A stretch of DNA of 64,000 bases, taken from positions 1 through 64,000 of the forward strand of contig QHUJ01000110.1 of assembly GCA_003221895.1 (NCBI GenBank), read 5' to 3'. Source of the DNA: Gemmatimonadota bacterium. GTDB taxonomy: Bacteria; Gemmatimonadota; Gemmatimonadetes; Gemmatimonadales; GWC2-71-9. This document shows positions 25,608 to 27,680 of this stretch, piece after piece (within the stretch, counting starts at the first letter, position 1; every line of letters starts with the position of its first letter). A program made the translations under genes and the position numbers. The notes beneath the pieces were generated by a model, which did no database searches, was not told where the DNA came from, and saw nothing but the letters and a program-made list of their open reading frames with translations.

Positions 25608-26324
25608 CTAGTTATCCTGCGCGAGCCGCTTCAAGAACCTGTTGAGGCGGCTTTCGCTGCTGTGCGGATCGTCGCCGATGTAATCGACGCGCGCCTCGGC
25701 GAGCGCGGCATGGAGCTCGGTGCGCGCGTCCGCCGCGCGCCCGCACAGCGCGGCCTCTTCGGGGGCCGATGCCTCGAGCAGATCGGCGGCAAGGGCGAGC
25801 ATGCGGCCGGCGAACGTCACGTACGCGCGGACCATGCCGTGCCCGGCACCGCCGCGCTCGACCCACTCGGGGAAACAGCCTGACCACCACAAGGCCAGCG
25901 CCGCGGCGTCGGCCGCGGCTTCGGCCTGCGCGACGGTGCCCTGCGGCAGCGCGGTGACGAAGCGCCACCACTCCGCCATGCCGTCCTCGCCGCGTGCGAT
26001 CGCCCGCTGCGATTGCGAGGTCGCGAAGACGACGGGGAGCGTCGCGGCGTAGTCGGCCAGCAGGATGTCGGTCACGCCGCGCGTCCGCAGCTGGGCGCGG
26101 ATCGGGACGTACCAGAGCAGCGTGAGGGGGAGCGGGGCAGGCGCGCCGCCACGGCCCAGGACTGCTTCGAGGGCCGCAGGTGAATCGAGCACGCTGTCGA
26201 CAGCGCCCGCCTGCAGCGCCTGATCGGCTTCGCGTCCTTCCGAGACATCCATCCGCGCGATCTCGTCCACCAGACAGGCGAGGTCGCCACGGGTCAGCTG
26301 GCGATGGATGATGGGCCTGATCAT
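25608..26324 (-). CDS. hypothetical alpha-helical protein, 238 aa
   Basis: ORF with coding-like composition; MIRPIIHRQL start preferred over the track's upstream start. Confidence 0.6.
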   Translation of the reverse strand: MIRPIIHRQLTRGDLACLVDEIARMDVSEGREADQALQAGAVDSVLDSPAALEAVLGRGGAPAPLPLTLLWYVPIRAQLRTRGVTDILLADYAATLPVVFATSQSQRAIARGEDGMAEWWRFVTALPQGTVAQAEAAADAAALALWWSGCFPEWVERGGAGHGMVRAYVTFAGRMLALAADLLEASAPEEAALCGRAADARTELHAALAEARVDYIGDDPHSSESRLNRFLKRLAQDN

Positions 26325-26513
26325 GCTTCCCCCCTTACGGCGACTGTAGAGGCAAGCTTGGTGCCGGTCATCTATCTGGCTATTGCGCAATGCCTTAGGC
26401 TGAGAAACCCTCAGCTACGTTGTACAACAGGTGCAGCACAAAGCTGCAATCCGACACGCGCCGCGGGTGTGAGGCTGCTCACGCTAATAAACGGTGGCTT
26501 GTCGGGAAAGTGG

Positions 26514-26540
26514 ATAGCACTCGGGGCCTTGGAGTGCTAA
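26514..26540 (+). promoter_or_regulatory. CIRCE element (HrcA operator): ATAGCACTC-N9-GAGTGCTAA
   Basis: 17/18 match to consensus TTAGCACTC-N9-GAGTGCTAA with exact 9-nt spacer; 26 nt before the efp ATG. Confidence 0.85.
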
Positions 26541-26566
26541 GGCAGCCGGTTTAAGTTCCCGCTCCC

Positions 26567-27124
26567 ATGAAAGCAACCGATATCCGCAAAGGGCATGTTC
26601 TCATGATCGACGGCCAGCCGTGCCGCGTCATGGACTTTACGCACCGGACTCCGGGCAACCTCCGGGCGTTCGTGCAGGTCCGGTTCCGCAATCTCGTCTC
26701 GGGGAACACGTTCGATCAGAGACTGGCCGCTACTGATTTCCTTCAGGAAGCGCGTCTCGATACGAAAGAGATGCAGGTCCTGTATCAGGACCAGGGCGGC
26801 GTGCACGTGATGGATCAGCAGACCTACGAGCAGTTCACACTCGACGAGCGTGCCGTGGGTGAGGACACCCCGTGGCTTCAACCGGAGATGGTCGTCCAGG
26901 TCGAGTGGCTCGAGGGCCGCCCGATCGCGATCGAGCTCCCGCCGGTGATCGAGCTGAAGGTTGTGGAGACCTCGCCGGTGATGAAGACCGCCACCAAGAC
27001 CTCGAGCACCAAGCCGGCGAAGCTGTCGAACGGCGTGACCGTTCAGGTGCCGGAGTTTATCTCGCCGGGTGAGAAGGTGCGCGTCGACCCGCGCTCGGGG
27101 CAGTACCTGGAGCGCGCGAAGTAA
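26567..27124 (+). CDS. efp: elongation factor P
   Basis: full-length EF-P (KGHVLMIDGQPCRVMDF, LPPVIELKVVETSP...FISPGEKVRVDPRSGQYLERAK). Confidence 0.95.
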   Translation: MKATDIRKGHVLMIDGQPCRVMDFTHRTPGNLRAFVQVRFRNLVSGNTFDQRLAATDFLQEARLDTKEMQVLYQDQGGVHVMDQQTYEQFTLDERAVGEDTPWLQPEMVVQVEWLEGRPIAIELPPVIELKVVETSPVMKTATKTSSTKPAKLSNGVTVQVPEFISPGEKVRVDPRSGQYLERAK

Positions 27125-27680
27125 GCTCCGCGTAGCGAAAGCAGGTCACGAGATGGTCGTTGACCATTCCCACGGCCTGCATGAACGCGTAGACGATTGT
27201 CGGTCCTACGAAACGAAAGCCTCGCTGGACCAGCTCCTTACTCATCGCGATCGATTCTTTGGTTTCGGCGGGAAGGCGCTTGAGCGTCTTCCAGGCGTTG
27301 ACCTTCGGGTTCCCGCCCACGTAGTGCCACAAGAACTCGTCGAATGACTCGCCCGCGTCTTTCATCTTGAGGTACGCGCGGGCGTTGCCCACGGCGGACT
27401 TCACCTTCTGCTTGTTACGAACGATGCCCGGGTCGCGCAGGATTTTCGCGATGCGCCTGGCGTCGTAGCGCGCCACTTTATCGGGATCGAAGCGATCGAA
27501 CGCCTTCAGGAACGCGTCGCGTTTGCGCAGGATGATGGCCCACGACAGCCCCGCCTGGAATCCATCGAGGACGAGCTTGCCGAAGAGTTGCTTGTCGTCG
27601 TGGACGGGGACGCCCCATTCGGTGTCGTGATAGGCAATCATTTGCTCACTGGAGGTCGACCAGCCGCAGCGGTTATCCAT
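27057..27680 (-). CDS. tag: DNA-3-methyladenine glycosylase I
   Basis: RCGWSTSSEQMIAYHDTEWGVP, GFQAGLSW, FVGPTIVYAFMQAVGMVNDH; C-terminal tail overlaps efp convergently. Confidence 0.95.
   Translation of the reverse strand: MDNRCGWSTSSEQMIAYHDTEWGVPVHDDKQLFGKLVLDGFQAGLSWAIILRKRDAFLKAFDRFDPDKVARYDARRIAKILRDPGIVRNKQKVKSAVGNARAYLKMKDAGESFDEFLWHYVGGNPKVNAWKTLKRLPAETKESIAMSKELVQRGFRFVGPTIVYAFMQAVGMVNDHLVTCFRYAELTSRAPGTAPSAGRRAPSHPAR

Follow-up and report, generated by a model that had tools for sequence, protein, structure and literature searches.

HrcA regulons of bacteria are normally composed of chaperone operons. In other bacteria, HrcA has been found to repress transcription from the CIRCE operator in a GroE-dependent manner, with repression lost on heating (PMC3842655, PMC8533110), and in a delta-proteobacterial survey groESL was the one constant member of the HrcA regulon (PMC545781). 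Members outside this set have been described as well: a CIRCE upstream of rpoH in Geobacter sulfurreducens was predicted by comparative genomics (PMC545781), and an accessory HrcA regulon that includes phoH was identified in Waddlia chondrophila by ChIP-seq and EMSA (PMC4989314). Here, we describe a CIRCE operator that precedes efp, the gene for elongation factor P (EF-P), in a genus of soil Gemmatimonadota. The window, that is the whole stretch of DNA that was analysed (64,000 nucleotides), contains the following features of the locus:

About 25608-26324, minus strand: divergent gene, function not assigned; no Pfam family, with a distant, sub-threshold likeness to TIGR03843 (SCO1664 family)
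26514-26540, plus strand: CIRCE operator, a predicted HrcA site, ATAGCACTC-N9-GAGTGCTAA, 17/18, in 8/8 genus members, 26 nt from the ATG
26529-26534, plus strand: putative -35 hexamer TTGGAG, running from the CIRCE spacer into its right arm; invariant in 8/8, 3/6 consensus positions
26552-26557, plus strand: putative -10 hexamer TAAGTT, its 3' end 9 nt from the ATG, within an aligned TAnnTT block
26567-27124, plus strand: efp, elongation factor P, 185 amino acids; above the TIGR00038 cut-off, with Pfam EFP_N, EFP and Elong-fact-P_C, loop tip TPGNLRA

The 27 bases of the operator read ATAGCACTC-GGGGCCTTG-GAGTGCTAA on the plus strand and differ by one mismatch from the consensus TTAGCACTC-N9-GAGTGCTAA, with 17 of 18 arm positions matched and a spacer of exactly 9 nt. 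It is the sole CIRCE match with up to three mismatches in the window, where 0.01 would be expected, and given the local base composition, chance would produce 0.0008 matches of 17/18 or better in the 3.714-Mb genome. The ATG of efp lies 26 nt beyond its 3' edge. The preliminary description of this DNA had recognized a CIRCE with these arms and this spacer, placed 26 nt ahead of efp and without a chaperone gene downstream, and both statements hold, since the window contains this single match and the genes that follow encode EF-P and then a glycosylase. A search for a terminator revealed none. An RNA hairpin or thermometer was also considered and rejected, as the palindrome lies upstream of the presumed transcription start and folding of the region is no better than that of shuffled sequences (z -0.49). 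Judged by its sequence, the palindrome is an ordinary CIRCE, and the novelty resides in its predicted target, efp.

A regulator that could act at this site is encoded in the same genome. The hrcA gene, in the order hemW-hrcA-dnaJ, scores 270.7 bits with TIGR00331 (cut-off 197.2), and PF01628 as well as PF03444, a winged-helix domain, likewise exceed their cut-offs. The exact motif GCACTC-N9-GAGTGC occurs at two places in the 3.7-Mb assembly, before groES-groEL and before efp, and the two sites share the 12-bp core and the 9-nt spacing. The presence of hrcA and a genome-wide inventory of CIRCE sites were checks proposed in the preliminary description, and both have come out in its favour. The groES site (on contig C149) matches at 18/18 and begins 66 nt ahead of the groES ATG, with the groEL frame next, while near dnaK or hrcA of this genome no CIRCE was found, the best score there being 10/18. 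With exact cores only at groES and efp and none near dnaK or hrcA, the predicted HrcA regulon of the source organism is groESL plus efp.

The efp product is a full-length EF-P, which scores 212.7 bits against the TIGR00038 equivalog cut-off of 185.8 and contains all three Pfam EF-P domains, and a single match shows the gene to be single-copy in the genome. In these respects it resembles the EF-P family at large, but unlike the forms with Lys or Arg at the loop tip it carries Asn (PGN, within THRTPGNLRA), a feature common to many Gemmatimonadota; in one survey, 2.23% of EF-Ps had N34 (PMC6544042). Other genera contain EF-P of the PGKGGAF type, and in G022 and G027 efp occurs in two copies, one of which is divergent. 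All 15 genomes checked contain a deoxyhypusine-synthase-like gene, regardless of the EF-P loop type. Downstream, efp is met by a convergent gene for DNA-3-methyladenine glycosylase I (27057-27680), and hence efp constitutes a one-gene unit. On the other side, the divergent gene keeps its place beside efp across the genus. Between the two lies a second palindrome, GTGAG-RCTG-CTCAC at 26469-26482, with 13/14 columns invariant in 8 species and no other copy in the genome. It is located 31 nt ahead of CIRCE and abuts it in three species, in which about three helical turns are removed, and may represent an operator of the divergent gene or the site of a second regulator of efp.

The most plausible efp promoter would overlap the operator. 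The hexamer TTGGAG straddles the junction of the CIRCE spacer and right arm, with three bases in each, and stands 17 nt before the conserved TAAGTT, and the 18 nt preceding the ATG (26549-26566) are invariant in 17/18 columns among 8 species. At the matching place in three sister genera (G024, G028 and G034), efp is preceded by TTGACC-N16-TATCTT, and the TAnnTT block recurs there in numerous genera of the family and order. By consensus, the proposed promoter is weak (6/12) and was not reported by an automatic promoter scan at a threshold of 9/12. An alternative farther upstream, TTGTC...TAGCAC, is unlikely to represent the conserved promoter, since it lies largely within 31 nt absent from three species that retain CIRCE. 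Only 9 nt separate the putative -10 hexamer from the ATG, and a Shine-Dalgarno sequence is not visible before efp, so that the transcript probably has no leader or almost none. The efp -35 would sit inside CIRCE, with the operator outside the transcribed leader, and such an overlap would explain why the spacer ends with CTTG in every species.

Conservation of the site was followed in 10 genomes of the genus, whose named records are all metagenome-assembled genomes (MAGs). A strict CIRCE search returned one or two places in each, all of them upstream of groES in 9 genomes or of efp in 8. In all 8 species with an assembled efp upstream region, CIRCE is kept with its spacer of exactly 9 nt and at an unchanged distance of 26 nt from the ATG, and the alignment of efp upstream regions suggested in the preliminary description hence reveals the palindrome as conserved. 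Both 6-bp cores are invariant (12/12 positions, 0% pairwise difference), and the outermost bases of the arms vary (16-17/18 in the seven sister species). The noncoding DNA on the divergent side shows 25% pairwise difference, with 54/126 columns invariant in the alignment of eight genomes. A 31-nt deletion in three species ends exactly at CIRCE, and the operator is still kept. The two genomes that do not show the efp site miss this very stretch: no efp match was obtained in G004, and in G006 (L025/L148) the promoter and codons 1-6 of efp are absent, the upstream region abutting codon 7, a truncation that is probably an assembly join. Four drafts of the genus (75-82% complete) have hrcA missing or partial, while the others give a full-length domain match, and in G002 (99% complete) a search for an exact groES CIRCE revealed none. 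With EF-P 96-98% identical across the species, conservation of the operator is strong against its background, but it is phylogenetically shallow, being that of one genus of close species.

Beyond the genus, the arrangement disappears. The best CIRCE scores upstream of efp are 9-11/18, which equals background, both in the nearest other genera, where EF-P is 77-79% identical, and in the remaining members of the family and order. Among 400 genomes from 140 genera of the phylum, a pattern search returned a CIRCE at efp in no other genus. A CIRCE at efp throughout the phylum can thus be rejected. A scan of 85,488 species, confined to exact cores that lie 20-50 nt from the ATG and are followed by a common EF-P start motif, yielded 27 stretches. 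Seven of these are located before efp, in each case in soil Gemmatimonadetes MAGs of this genus. The remaining stretches show no EF-P reading frame, and the identifiable ones belong to groES, hrcA or rpoH-like genes. The rpoH-like (sigma-32) cases come from Sedimenticola and Chromatiales MAGs (L084, L089) and echo the rpoH site of Geobacter sulfurreducens. Sister genera keep hrcA, with groES downstream of most of their exact CIRCE sites, which suggests that the ancestral HrcA regulon was probably groESL alone and that efp was added in this genus. The earlier proposal that EF-P may belong to the HrcA regulon "in this lineage" is hence upheld at the level of sequence for one genus and fails for the phylum.

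Taken together, we hold it highly probable that HrcA covers the -35 region and represses efp, that heat or an overload of GroEL releases this repression, and that efp is a new target restricted to this genus. In unstressed cells, GroESL would keep HrcA active, and HrcA bound at 26514-26540 would bar RNA polymerase from the overlapping -35 hexamer of the near-leaderless promoter, which would hold EF-P at a basal level. Heat or misfolded proteins would inactivate HrcA or divert GroEL, such that groESL and efp are derepressed together and GroESL and EF-P rise in parallel under folding stress. The dependence on heat or GroEL is transferred by analogy from HrcA of other bacteria. A point against this model is that efp usually has a housekeeping role and that complete shut-off of its single copy would be odd; one may conjecture that an efp operator of 17/18, as compared to the 18/18 operator of groES, leaves a basal level of EF-P. 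On this basis, EF-P supply is probably tied to protein-folding stress in this genus. A bolder version, to which we give even chances, is that chaperonin load determines how well the cell can translate polyproline stretches: free GroESL, acting via HrcA, would tune the sole EF-P with its unusual Asn tip, so that folding stress and the stalling of ribosomes at prolines share one feedback loop, the operator having arisen over the efp -35.

Other readings of the palindrome need to be weighed against repression of efp by HrcA. A chance match is scarcely credible, since only 0.0008 are expected per genome and conservation in 8/8 species refutes it. A regulator other than HrcA could read the palindrome, its likeness to CIRCE being convergent, and the greater variability of the outer arm bases as compared to the core would fit such a case; yet the 12-bp core and the 9-nt spacing are the same as at the groES site of the same genome, the exact core occurs nowhere else and hrcA is present. 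As we know of no reader of CIRCE other than HrcA, a convergent origin appears very improbable.

If HrcA is accepted as the ligand, its target might still be mainly the divergent gene, or both genes. The retained position of that gene in the genus and the noncoding DNA between it and CIRCE speak for such a role, but its likely start is about 190 nt from CIRCE, as against exactly 26 nt to efp in every species, the 31-nt deletion shifts its distance to CIRCE with that to efp unchanged, and its side carries the other conserved palindrome (26469-26482); we therefore give this assignment very little weight. Binding of HrcA without repression, either as a decoy that buffers HrcA or with no effect on efp output, would agree with the slightly degenerate outer arms (16-17/18) and the low consensus score of the promoter. 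The fixed spacing to efp and the presumed overlap with the -35, however, suit the operator of a repressor and are needless for a decoy, which makes silent binding very improbable. Repression of efp by HrcA from this site hence stays the preferred interpretation.

The locus is best read as a new HrcA target, efp, confined to a single genus; specialists would hardly anticipate such wiring at the genus level. Within the open literature, to which the search was confined (subscription papers lying outside its scope), no paper joining CIRCE, HrcA, elongation factor P and regulon was found; if true, this would connect the HrcA circuit directly to ribosome stall rescue for the first time, as far as that literature shows. 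Under the model, EF-P should increase in concert with GroEL. The sister genera without the site provide a natural before/after pair for a repressor that gains a target.

Compared with the CIRCE of groESL, in its own genome and in bacteria more widely, the efp site has the same 9-9-9 palindrome in an organism that encodes HrcA. In the groES regions of the genus, as read by eye, CIRCE follows a promoter of the TTGACA/GAGATT type and precedes the Shine-Dalgarno sequence, whereas at efp, whose product is a translation factor, it overlaps the putative -35 of a near-leaderless promoter, so that each operator would act at a different position relative to its promoter. With the rpoH site of Geobacter sulfurreducens it has in common that a lineage-specific HrcA target outside chaperone operons is predicted by comparative genomics; however, rpoH itself encodes a heat-shock regulator, while EF-P is a general translation factor. 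A further parallel is offered by Waddlia chondrophila, which belongs to a different phylum and for which the main text of the study does not contain the term "elongation factor" (PMC4989314), but where the HrcA regulon has likewise gained lineage-specific non-chaperone members, bound there in vitro.
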